Assembly: GCA_027061855.1 (NCBI GenBank)
Contig: JAMOVT010000051.1
Location: 1-41,553, forward strand
Direction: 5' to 3'
From: Flavobacteriales bacterium
GTDB taxonomy: Bacteria; Bacteroidota; Bacteroidia; Flavobacteriales; Flavobacteriaceae
Length of the DNA: 41,553 nucleotides
Part shown: piece after piece, positions 4,509 through 25,660 of the stretch
Layout of the letters: every line of letters begins with the position of its first letter
Position numbering within the stretch: position 1 is the first letter of the stretch
Notes under the pieces: model-generated
What the model was told of the DNA's origin: nothing
The model's database searches: none
The model's input: the letters and a program-made list of their open reading frames with translations, nothing else
Program-made: the position numbers and the translations under genes

Positions 4509-5744
4509 TTGAAAATAGATTTTTTTATAGCCAAGCGCCTAATTAAACCCGGCATAAACAAAGATAGAATTTCTTCGCCAATAATAAAAATTGCGATTAT
4601 CTCTATCGCTATCGGTGTGATAATCATGCTGATTTCTATGGCAACGGGTTTTGGCTTGCAACATAAAATCAGAGAAAAAATCTCGGCTTTTTCAGGACAT
4701 GTCATTATTAGCGATTATGATAATAACCAATCGGATTTAACTATAAACCCCATTTCTCTAAATCAGGATTTTTATCCGCATTTTGATAGTATTGAAGGCA
4801 TAAAAAATGTACAAACCTATGCAAGTATCGGGGGGATTTTGAGAACCGAAAAAGACTTTGAAGGGATTGTATACAAAGGGGTAGGTCCTCATTATGATTG
4901 GAGTATTTTTAAAACCTATTTAATCGAAGGAAAAATCCCCGATTTTACTCAAAAAATATTTAACGACAGTATCATCATTTCCAAAACCTTGGCCGATCGT
5001 TTGCAATTAAAAAGAAATGATAAAGTGCCTGCCTATTTTATGCGTGAAGGTTCACAGAAACCGCAGTTGCGTGTTTTTAAAATTGCCGGAATTTATGATA
5101 CGGGTTTTGCCGATTTCGATCAAACTTATTTACTGGGACAACTCAAAATGGTCCAAGCTTTATACAAATGGCCGGATAGCTTGACAGGAGCCTTTGAAGT
5201 GATACTCGATGATTTCAATGAAATCGACGAGAAAACAAATGAAATTTATCAAGCCATTCCGGCTGATTTGAATGCACAGTCTATAAAAGATAAATATCCG
5301 CTGATATTCAATTGGTTACAAATGTTTGACTTCAATATATTAATGATTCTTGTCATCATTATATTCATTGCGGGTTTAAATATGATTACGACCATTCTGG
5401 TGCTTATAATGGAAAAAAGACAATTCATCGCTATGATGAAAGTAATGGGAAGTGACAACCGGCGCCTGCGACGTATCTTTTTAATCCAAGCGGCTTATAT
5501 TATCGTTTTTGGCCTTTTAATAGGAAATATCATCGGCTTGGGATTGATTTATTTGCAAAAATATCTCGGCTTTATAAAACTCGATCCGCATACTTATTAT
5601 GTCAAAACAGCACCCGTCTATATCGATTTTAAAGATGTATTATTTTTAAATATCGGGGTGGTATTGATTATTTTATTGATGTTGTTGATTCCCGTATTGA
5701 TTATAGGAAGGATTTCACCGACAAAAGTATTGAAATTCGATTAA
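4509..5744 (+). CDS. LolC/LolE-type ABC transporter permease (FtsX domain)
   Basis: This 411-residue inner-membrane protein has the LolC/E layout: one N-terminal transmembrane helix (about 24-49), a large periplasmic domain (about 50-270), then three helices (about 273-300, 322-349, 376-401) forming the FtsX-like domain. Its ending ISPTKVLKFD is typical. LolCDE-type exporters move lipoproteins to the outer membrane, or drive other periplasmic mechanotransmission. The start is TTG at 4509: no ATG or GTG lies between it and the upstream in-frame stop at 4473-4475, and the N-terminal FFIAKR motif belongs at the very start of the family. No ATPase partner is adjacent. It is divergent from the NamZ-like gene with a 12-bp gap. 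The exact substrate is unknown. Confidence 0.88.
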   Translation: MKIDFFIAKRLIKPGINKDRISSPIIKIAIISIAIGVIIMLISMATGFGLQHKIREKISAFSGHVIISDYDNNQSDLTINPISLNQDFYPHFDSIEGIKNVQTYASIGGILRTEKDFEGIVYKGVGPHYDWSIFKTYLIEGKIPDFTQKIFNDSIIISKTLADRLQLKRNDKVPAYFMREGSQKPQLRVFKIAGIYDTGFADFDQTYLLGQLKMVQALYKWPDSLTGAFEVILDDFNEIDEKTNEIYQAIPADLNAQSIKDKYPLIFNWLQMFDFNILMILVIIIFIAGLNMITTILVLIMEKRQFIAMMKVMGSDNRRLRRIFLIQAAYIIVFGLLIGNIIGLGLIYLQKYLGFIKLDPHTYYVKTAPVYIDFKDVLFLNIGVVLIILLMLLIPVLIIGRISPTKVLKFD

Positions 5745-21967: not shown

Positions 21968-22432
21968 ATGAAAAAAATAGCATTAATTATTCTTTTTTTA
22001 GGTTTGAGTTTCCAAGCGGGAGCTCAAGAATACACAAATGAAATCGGATTTAGAGGCGGATTATTCAATGGTATTACTTTTAAGCATTTTACTAATGATA
22101 ATGTAGCTTTGGAAGGGATTCTTACCAGCCGCTGGAGAGGATTTCAATTGACCGGTTTGGTAGAATATCACAATGACATCAATGATGTTGAAAACCTCAG
22201 ATGGTTTTACGGCTATGGTGCACATGCCGGTTTTTATGATGATAAATACACCGGTTGGGGAGAGGATACCAGTTACACCAATATCGGAGTAGATGGAATT
22301 ATCGGATTGGAATATGTAATTCCCAATGCACCGATTTCCATAAGTATTGATTGGAAGCCTTATTTCAACTTAGTCGGATACACCGGATTTGCAGGTGATT
22401 CAGGCGCTTTATCCATTCGATTTTTATTTTAA
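21968..22432 (+). CDS. Small outer-membrane beta-barrel protein
   Basis: The 154-residue protein has a signal peptide (cleavage near residue 19 after AGAQ) and a mature part of alternating strands: NEIGFRGGLFNGITFKHF, WRGFQLTGLVEYHND, GIIGLEYVIPNAPISISIDW, ending in the aromatic ALSIRFLF. That ending is typical of outer-membrane assembly signals. It resembles short barrel proteins common in Bacteroidota without a known role. A strong terminator follows at 22450-22486. Confidence 0.82.
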   Translation: MKKIALIILFLGLSFQAGAQEYTNEIGFRGGLFNGITFKHFTNDNVALEGILTSRWRGFQLTGLVEYHNDINDVENLRWFYGYGAHAGFYDDKYTGWGEDTSYTNIGVDGIIGLEYVIPNAPISISIDWKPYFNLVGYTGFAGDSGALSIRFLF

Positions 22433-22449: not shown

Positions 22450-22486
22450 AAAAAATGCCCGCCAAATTTTAGGCGGGCATTTTTTT
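22450..22486. terminator. Bidirectional terminator between the barrel gene and the cyd operon
   Basis: ATGCCCGCC (22455-22463) pairs with GGCGGGCAT (22472-22480), flanked by A-runs on the left and T-runs on the right. It can end transcription from both the plus-strand barrel gene and the minus-strand cyd operon. Confidence 0.88.
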
Positions 22487-22502: not shown

Positions 22503-22613
22503 TTATTTATTTTCGTATTTTTCTTCGTATTTCTTTACTGCCCAAAAGCTCAATTTATAAGCTAAATAAATGAGAATGGGCCAACTGATAAAATGTATCA
22601 TTCCGTATAACAT
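22503..22613 (-). CDS. 36-residue single-span membrane protein, CydX-like candidate
   Basis: An ATG at 22613 opens 36 codons ending in TAA at 22503-22505. The product begins MLYGMIHFISWPILIYLAYK and continues LSFWAVKKYEEKYENK: one hydrophobic helix at about 4-25 and a charged C-terminal tail. It starts 11 bases after the cydB stop and is followed by the terminator at 22450-22486, so it is the last gene of the cyd operon. Proteobacterial CydX and Gram-positive CydS are also tiny single-span subunits of the bd oxidase, often encoded after cydB. I see no clear sequence identity to them. The assignment rests on size, topology and place. Confidence 0.72.
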   Translation of the reverse strand: MLYGMIHFISWPILIYLAYKLSFWAVKKYEEKYENK

Positions 22614-22624
22614 AATTTCTGATT

Positions 22625-23806
22625 TTAGTATTTAATTTCTTCTTTTTTTAATTCTTCAACAGATAATTTATGGCTGTCCAATGCTTTCCAAGCCCAGATA
22701 ATATAGGCAATTACAAAAGGAACCATTAAGGAAACATATGCCATGGCAGTTAACGTATATTTGCTGGAAGAGCTGTTGGCAATTGTCAATGAGCTTTGTA
22801 AATCATAAATGGAAGGATAGTAAGAGGTATGATTAAAACCTGCCAAAAAGAATATGGCCATTACGGTAATAATCGTTCCTATACCGGCTTTCCAAAAGGC
22901 ATTGGTTTGGTTTTTAAACAGTCCTCCGTATATTCCCCATAATACCAATAGAATTCCTATTAATAGGAAAATCAACAGGGCAGGTTGTTGAACCAAATTA
23001 TGGAAATATTTATAAGGCTCCATATAGATTTCTCCGGTTTCAGGATTTACGGCAAATCCGTTTATGAACAAAAGACGTATCAGCCAGAATAAAAAGAAAA
23101 TGAGAAATAGAATGACATTTCTTTTCAAACATTTTTGGGCTTTTTCAAGAATGTTTTGGTTGTCCACCATTTTTTTGATATAGAGCAATGCGATTACCCG
23201 TGCAAGAAAGAAAATGGCTAGTCCCAAAGCTAAGTTTTGTAAAAAAGCCAAATTGTCAATAGTCCAGATCGCTTCCAAACCATACCAGGGAGATTTCCAT
23301 TGAGAAATAACCGCTTCGACATTACTTTTTAAATTGACAATTCTTGATTTATCAACGGAAAAAGGACTGCCGGTAAAGAAAGTAGAAACAGCTACTCCCA
23401 AAAATACCGGAGCAATTACTCCGTTAAAAAAGAGGAATTTCTCATAGGTTTTGCTTCCGAGAAAATTGTTTTTTTTCTTACGGTATTCATAAGAAACCGC
23501 TTGAACGATAAATGCGAATAGAATGATCATCCACACATAATAAGCTCCCCCGAAACTGGTAGAGTAGAAGAGGGGAAAGGAGGCAAAAAAGGCTCCTCCG
23601 AAAACTACCAAGGTGGTGAAAGTAATCTCCCATTTATGGCCGAATAGATTGACCAAAAGGGTTTTTTCTTCTTCGTTATCACTTAGTTTGTTCAGCAAAG
23701 TTTGTCCTCCCTGAACAAAGAGCATAAATACCAGTGCGCCTCCCAAAAGGGCAATAATAATCCACCAGTAAGCTTGTAAAGATTCATATGATAATGCTTC
23801 AAACAT
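22625..23806 (-). CDS. cydB: Cytochrome bd ubiquinol/menaquinol oxidase subunit II
   Basis: The 393-residue integral membrane protein has about eight to nine hydrophobic helices and the CydB N-terminus LQAYWWIIIALLGGALVFMLFVQGG, where the family has LxxxWfxligvlligyfildGfdlG. It includes NLFGHKWEITFTTLVVFGG, matching the conserved GPvWdgnevWlv region in a variant form, and FLLIGILLVLWGIYG. CydB stabilises CydA in the bd oxidase. It starts 12 bases after the cydA stop. The N-terminal motif departs from the E. coli form, as is usual for Bacteroidota. Confidence 0.92.
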   Translation of the reverse strand: MFEALSYESLQAYWWIIIALLGGALVFMLFVQGGQTLLNKLSDNEEEKTLLVNLFGHKWEITFTTLVVFGGAFFASFPLFYSTSFGGAYYVWMIILFAFIVQAVSYEYRKKKNNFLGSKTYEKFLFFNGVIAPVFLGVAVSTFFTGSPFSVDKSRIVNLKSNVEAVISQWKSPWYGLEAIWTIDNLAFLQNLALGLAIFFLARVIALLYIKKMVDNQNILEKAQKCLKRNVILFLIFFLFWLIRLLFINGFAVNPETGEIYMEPYKYFHNLVQQPALLIFLLIGILLVLWGIYGGLFKNQTNAFWKAGIGTIITVMAIFFLAGFNHTSYYPSIYDLQSSLTIANSSSSKYTLTAMAYVSLMVPFVIAYIIWAWKALDSHKLSVEELKKEEIKY

Positions 23807-25389: not shown

Positions 25390-25611
25390 CTAATCTTTTT
25401 TTGGTGTAATAATTAATTGTTTTTCTATATGTTCAATTCTTTCTTTGTCAGAATGAAAGTTTTCCTTGAGTATATTCGGGAAGAAAAAAATTTTTAGAAT
25501 GGCAAACATCACGAAAAGTTTAATAAAAATGATGAACCAAAGCTTTTTTCCTCTGGGAGACATATCCCTAAAACCCTCATAATAAAATAACCAAACCTTT
25601 TTTAGAATCAT
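25390..25611 (-). CDS. DUF4492 small membrane protein, first gene of the cyd operon
   Basis: From ATG at 25611 the protein has 73 residues: MILKKVWLFYYEGFRDM, one membrane helix at about 24-45, and a charged tail. This matches DUF4492, a Bacteroidota family usually encoded directly before cydA. I chose the internal ATG because the promoter's -7 element (25630-25637) would place the longer ATG at 25632 upstream of the transcript start. It is followed 2 bases later by cydA. A role in assembling or stabilising the oxidase is plausible from position but unproven. Confidence 0.85.
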   Translation of the reverse strand: MILKKVWLFYYEGFRDMSPRGKKLWFIIFIKLFVMFAILKIFFFPNILKENFHSDKERIEHIEKQLIITPKKD

Positions 25612-25629
25612 TCTAAATAATTTAAAATA

Positions 25630-25660
25630 CAAAGTTACGGTAATTATTATAGGAAGTCAA
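25630..25660 (-). promoter_or_regulatory. Bacteroidota sigma-A promoter of the cyd operon
   Basis: On the minus strand TTG (25658-25660, within TTGAC), a 20-base spacer and TAACTTTG (25630-25637) match the consensus. No convincing CRP/FNR operator was seen around it. Confidence 0.75.

Follow-up and report, generated by a model that had tools for sequence, protein, structure and literature searches.

The window analysed here, a stretch of 41,553 nucleotides, carries on its minus strand four genes in an operon-like order, a DUF4492 gene, cydA, cydB and a short ORF, followed by a hairpin (Table 1). The ORF runs from an ATG at 22613 to a TAA at 22503-22505 and comprises 36 codons and the stop, and the plus-strand reading of 22503-22613 contains stops. 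The preliminary description had placed an ATG-to-TAA ORF of 37 codons, stop included, 11 bases after cydB. Both points are confirmed, as cydB ends at 22625 and its stop is separated from the ORF ATG by 11 nt; the strand was absent from that description. The start of the DUF4492 gene is listed as TTG, but translation may in fact begin at an internal ATG.

Table 1. The cyd genes and neighboring elements in the window.
Feature	Position	Strand	Basis
Gene for a 36-aa single-span membrane protein, CydX/CioY-like (putative)	22503..22613	-	ORF, conservation, pN/pS, AlphaFold2
20 nt upstream of the ORF start codon	22614..22633	-	A at -3, -12 and -13
cydB, bd oxidase subunit II, 393 aa	22625..23806	-	Pfam PF02322, E 1.4e-63
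cydA, bd oxidase subunit I, 522 aa, long Q-loop	23819..25387	-	Pfam PF01654, E 7.9e-166
DUF4492 gene, operon head	25390..25632	-	Pfam PF14899, E 3.5e-27
14-bp stem-loop, likely terminator	22450..22485 (about)	-	fold of 66-nt stretch

The predicted product, MLYGMIHFISWPILIYLAYKLSFWAVKKYEEKYENK, consists of a single hydrophobic stretch and a charged tail. In agreement with the hydrophobic helix and charged tail noted earlier, AlphaFold2 models one helix spanning residues 2-34 (mean pLDDT 86.3, pTM 0.44). A 19-residue hydropathy of 1.6 is a rule-of-thumb mark for a membrane span; the best value of the window ORF is 1.42, under this mark, and values above 1.6 are found in 79 of the 104 members of the family described below. 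The strong terminator proposed to follow the ORF is borne out by folding of the 66-nt stretch containing the hairpin (-26 kcal/mol; z -5.36 relative to shuffled sequences), though a simple consensus terminator scan of the window did not list it, probably because the stem takes up the T run. A convergent ORF on the plus strand (21968-22432) ends just past the hairpin.

The window ORF matched nothing in Pfam (E ≤ 1) or NCBIfam (E ≤ 10), and scans of 15 family members indicated no convincing family in either collection. Those scans yielded two Pfam matches and a few NCBIfam matches, confined to one or two members apiece and all to unrelated families, the best being PspB (E 0.0013). PDB searches with the ORF sequence and with the ORF profile gave chance hits only.

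When the single ORF sequence was searched against 60 relatives, 26 gave some match at E ≤ 10, and the strong matches among these 60 were confined to the genome of the ORF itself and to one of the two genomes from its genus; the other same-genus genome, which is 90% complete, gave no ORF match. Named genomes scanned with CydB provided 41 cydB loci; at ten of these, an ORF of 35-41 aa that contains an x[WY]P motif lies no more than 60 nt past cydB. A profile of those ten and the window ORF picks up two loci absent from it, L044 and L045, bringing the number to 12 of 41. The genomes of the 41 loci include 16 with a match at E ≤ 0.1 and 13 with a match at E ≤ 1.2e-12; 12 of these 13 strong matches are the cydB-adjacent ones, and the thirteenth is genome G598, with two copies. 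G598 has three cydB loci, L062 without the ORF and L116 and L117 with it.

A wider search, using a 15-sequence profile against 247 genomes of the order of Draconibacterium orientale (G568), found matches in 99 genomes at E ≤ 0.01 and in 93 at E < 1e-3, and the six genomes with E values of 0.0019-0.0096 were left out of the latter. Ninety of the 93 matches follow a cydB on the same strand, within 250 nt in all but four: 78 were placed there by joining the match table with the cydB rows listed, and 12 more by inspection of the other 15 loci. The three exceptions are an orphan copy (L123), a match at a contig end (L130) and a weak match (L132) that, as read from the translations, has a cytochrome c oxidase operon close by. 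The orphan copy (G669:C112; E 4e-12) has no cydB in the surrounding 4.9 kb, and its genome has a cydB match. Overall, the ORF matches in 92 of 174 genomes with CydB versus one of 73 without CydB.

The occurrence of the ORF after cydB is patchy. Of the cydB rows without the ORF (71 among the matches listed), 40 were examined. All 15 loci from Bacteroides, Phocaeicola and Prevotella are without the ORF, and their genomes give no match at E ≤ 0.1; a DUF4492 gene is present at 14 of these loci, and the remaining one (L058) has too little upstream sequence. The expectation that the ORF would follow cydB across relatives therefore holds for many Bacteroidota and fails as a universal rule. A record titled Gracilibacteria (L054) has DUF4492 and cydAB, and some 140 nt beyond cydB a hydrophobic ORF of 42 aa (about 5315-5443) containing the motif FWPF, which could reflect transfer, mis-binning or a divergent copy; in a record titled Chlorobiota (L026), CydB is 92% identical to that of the Marinilabiliaceae locus L061, and mislabeling or transfer is possible. 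The cydB type of the window is found in two of 149 genomes of its own family and in six of 395 genomes of a phylum sample, its own genome included in both counts. As this type is rare in its own family, the cyd operon of the window may have been acquired from elsewhere.

The family of 104 sequences used below excludes two duplicates (L133 of L032, and L140 of L035) as well as L123, L130 and L132, which are not shown to adjoin cydB. Pro is invariant (104 of 104) and is preceded immediately by Trp in 93 sequences, with Ile at Pro+3 in 95 and Tyr at Pro+7 in 85; the corresponding residues named in the window ORF are W11, P12 and Y19. After the Tyr comes a Lys/Arg-rich stretch with an acidic residue, basic residues averaging 2.9 over Pro+13 to Pro+22 and 0.24 in the part ahead of the Pro. 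The interval between the cydB stop and the ORF start has a median of 18 nt (n = 104), being at most 60 nt in 86 cases and 426-605 nt in four. In two of the 93 matching genomes (G702 and G796), a stop is listed inside the matched stretch, and each reads as a 33-codon ORF. At one further locus, L222, there is a divergent copy with a WYF...W start, for which the profile E is only 0.007.

Several lines of sequence evidence point to selection on the encoded protein. The window ORF and that of the same-genus locus L002 differ at 28 nucleotides and nine residues (pN/pS 0.25), and comparison with L023 gives a pN/pS of 0.33; frame disruption was looked for in these close relatives and none was found, both ORFs being of the same length and free of stops and frameshifts. 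In 20,000 neutral simulations, residue changes as few as those between the window and L002 never occurred, and those between the window and L023 were matched in 1.1%. As pairs picked by ORF protein identity bias pN/pS toward low values, the test was repeated with disjoint pairs picked by CydB identity, one of 35 being dropped for having under eight differences. In-frame pN/pS is below 1 in all 34 remaining pairs and below 0.5 in 26 (median 0.36), consistent with the synonymous-biased substitution predicted at the outset. Medians in the shifted sense frames are 1.04 (+1) and 1.44 (+2), and those in the antisense frames are 1.04, 1.72 and, in the frame sharing wobble positions, 0.54.

The start codons have a consistent context. 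An A-rich signature at -3 and -12 is typical of initiation in Bacteroidota. A occupies -12 in 89% of ORF starts and -3 in 68% (n = 101, six of 107 starts being left out), compared with 35 and 31% of other nearby ATGs (n = 813) and 61 and 72% of cydB starts (n = 95). A at both positions occurs in 62% of ORF starts, 10% of other ATGs and 42% of cydB starts; the difference between ORF starts and other ATGs has a Fisher p of 4e-30, computed over ATGs that are not mutually independent. Shine-Dalgarno-like motifs precede six of 103 ORF starts.

Judged by its conservation and the frame-specific purifying selection, the ORF is more than a chance reading frame. A terminator-like hairpin follows it, in keeping with the contrary reading that the stretch goes untranslated, as a fortuitous ORF or as part of a 3' UTR with conserved sequence; the frame-specific selection, the start-codon context and protein-level conservation in 104 sequences reduce its probability to almost nothing. 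A leader peptide was also considered and ruled out, the ORF being the last before the hairpin, and a UTR element was ruled out by the protein-level conservation.

The oxidase encoded with the ORF is of the long-Q-loop type. Window CydA has E. coli bd-I (6rko_A) as its best sequence match in the PDB, and its Q region, measured between the same anchors, spans 148 residues, compared with 133 in E. coli. Counts of Q-loop type and of DUF4492 were made at 97 of the 104 loci, where CydA is present and long enough: the Q region is 127-158 residues in all 97, and the ORF is found at none of nine short-Q loci (67-76 residues). Conversely, 65 of 162 long-Q loci (Q region 122-153 residues) are without the ORF by profile, one of them, L222, holding the divergent copy. 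A long Q-loop alone is thus not enough for ORF presence. On a quick CydAB tree of 162 loci, ORF presence changes at least 17 times, a number that missed copies would inflate. The many long-Q loci without the ORF and these repeated changes suggest that the oxidase can do without the ORF or use something else. The ORF is a genuine and conserved gene, under purifying selection at the protein level and linked to cydB, and in the examined loci it occurs only with long-Q CydA.

The absence from long-Q loci might be explained if the ORF product were an assembly or maturation factor for CydAB and not a stable subunit. This is improbable, as CydX, a counterpart in both size and gene position, has been observed in the oxidase purified from E. 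coli (PMC6853902), and the Campylobacter jejuni protein CioY co-immunoprecipitates with CioA (Froschauer, 2025; PMC11955535).

The DUF4492 gene, present at 89 of the 97 ORF-bearing loci, adds another small membrane protein to the operon. Its absence is not judgeable at L022, L058 and L064-L068, where upstream sequence is short, and not firmly so at loci cut by contig ends. The quick tree does not show correlated gain or loss of the ORF and DUF4492. Among 14 control genomes, DUF4492 matched only in Bacteroides ihuae, and it is not named in the limited collection of literature searched. Seven loci with Bacteroidales or Bacteroidetes titles (L027, L028, L029, L031, L034, L057 and L062) have long-Q cydAB with neither DUF4492 nor the ORF found, and are possibly a distinct cydAB subgroup.

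We consider it likely, with a probability of about 0.85, that the ORF codes for a protein, a small subunit with a single span that belongs to the long-Q-loop cytochrome bd oxidase of the same operon. The predicted helix would lie against CydA where CydX sits in E. coli, at transmembrane (TM) helices 1, 5 and 6 close to haem b558; the Lys/Glu tail would be cytoplasmic, and the product would help to assemble and hold the haem-bearing subunit. The predicted single helix, the basic tail and the pairing with long-Q CydA fit the same role as that of CydX. Mutual information among the ORF, CydA and CydB (97 loci, Neff 51) gave no support for the TM 1/5/6 site: of the top 60 pairs, none falls in TM1 or TM5 and one in TM6, with TM limits set by eye. 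The top pairs join the most variable columns, in the ORF tail and the Q-loop, and are probably an entropy effect.

The product might instead be an oxidase subunit bound elsewhere, for example in the cleft at TM 1/9 that CydH (YnhF) occupies, plugging the oxygen channel, in which case the CydX position might be that of the DUF4492 protein. The operon does encode two small membrane proteins at most ORF-bearing loci, and E. coli bd-I contains both CydX and CydH (PMC6853902; PMC8951039). Yet E. coli CydH is encoded outside the cyd operon (PMC6853902), the resemblance of the ORF family is to CydX, and CioY, which has the same named residues, is modeled in a CydX-like position (PMC11955535). This arrangement is accordingly an unlikely one, and a subunit at the CydX position is the reading we prefer.

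Such a subunit would extend the tiny third chain of bd oxidase, putatively and in 104 sequences, to another large phylum, in which many anaerobic members use or remove oxygen by bd oxidase. It would supply a chain for structural work and account for the small gene that ends many cyd operons. Loci that lack it, such as those of Bacteroides, Phocaeicola and Prevotella in its patchy distribution, provide a natural test of the subunit role.

Among known small subunits, CydX/AppX of Proteobacteria are like the ORF product in size, gene position, single span and association with a long-Q CydA; the ORF product differs in having about seven more N-terminal residues, the invariant Pro and a basic tail, and in lacking a Pfam match. 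The Pfam family of CydX is PF08173; no CydX family match was found for 15 members at E ≤ 10 in Pfam and NCBIfam, nor did the four proteins of the window operon match a CydX model. A profile of 105 sequences (the 104 and L222) compared with seven CydX sequences scored 23.8 with a probability of 66.9% (65.1% without L222), in a colinear alignment of 27 columns that pairs MWYFxW with LWxxSW. The best control scores were 16.9 for 60 column-shuffled CydX profiles, 13.9 for one reversed profile, 21.5 for 100 shuffled families and 18.2 for 66 TM-rich CydA/CydB windows; one shuffled family reached a probability of 62.8%, over eight columns. When 15 members were compared with just the E. coli CydX, the probability was 2.6%. 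These results are suggestive of a remote resemblance of the ORF family to CydX, short of the usual certainty.

CydS of Geobacillus (5doq chain C; 33 aa) shares with the ORF product a single span and a Pro in the first third. A profile comparison of the ORF family with CydS did not show the similarity expected from this Pro (score 7.3, reached by 53 of 100 shuffles); Geobacillus CydA is more distant from window CydA than E. coli CydA is. CydZ (DUF2474, PF10617) goes with a short Q-loop; no such Pfam match was found for the window operon proteins or for 15 family members, and the Q-loop here is long.

CydW of Porphyromonas gingivalis, like the ORF product, is a small membrane protein of a cydAB operon. 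It is unlike the ORF product in being encoded upstream and in its length of about 80 aa, as for DUF4492 (PF14899). The P. gingivalis study gives the name cydW to an upstream gene and reports that the species lacks cydX and has neither cydY nor cydZ behind cydAB (PMC4668044). The window DUF4492 gene is probably, from its position, the counterpart of cydW, and because this separate gene is also in the window, the ORF is not CydW/DUF4492.

The closest described protein appears to be CydY/CioY, which the preliminary description did not name in proposing a Bacteroidota counterpart of the bd-oxidase small subunits, a proposal now supported by analogy. CydY was predicted after cydB in 15 species, in long-Q operons without CydX; its helix opens with a conserved Trp, described as absolute, and each of these operons also encodes another small hydrophobic protein upstream of cydAB (Allen, 2014; PMC4325964); we infer this upstream protein to be DUF4492. 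CioY of C. jejuni (34 aa) was found translated by Ribo-seq, and in the same work its association with CioA was detected, it was modeled on CioA as CydX on CydA, and Trp, Pro and Tyr were found to be conserved (Froschauer, 2025; PMC11955535). The name CydY is doubly used, for the epsilonproteobacterial small protein (2014) and for E. coli YnhF/CydH (2019; PMC6853902).

The ORF product is thus similar to CydY/CioY in gene position downstream of cydB/cioB, single helix, length (36 versus 34 aa), long-Q CydA, absence of CydX from the operon, the Trp, Pro and Tyr, and the upstream hydrophobic small protein, as far as these published accounts describe it. It is unlike CydY/CioY in its Bacteroidota host and in that Trp is found in 93 of 104 sequences and is not absolute. 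No Campylobacterota cydB loci appeared among the matches listed in the named-genome scan or in the plasmid searches with cydB and DUF4492, one of which had 40 of its 264 records among the matches listed. The likeness is therefore drawn by the residues named in the paper, and orthology is presumed by analogy. The terms 'Bacteroid' and 'Flavobacteri' are absent from the main text of the 2014 survey (PMC4325964), and the limited collection of literature searched yielded no description of a Bacteroidota copy.

The survey suggested separate inventions inside Proteobacteria (PMC4325964). Tentatively, and against somewhat adverse odds, CydX, CydY/CioY and the Bacteroidota family might all descend from one ancient subunit of long-Q-loop bd oxidase that was kept or lost many times, and Bacteroidota copies with a WYF...W start, as at L222, would then be intermediates. 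On the analogies above, the ORF family is most likely a Bacteroidota branch of the CydY/CioY/CydX kind, whose translation, CydA binding, position and function would follow those of its better-described counterparts.
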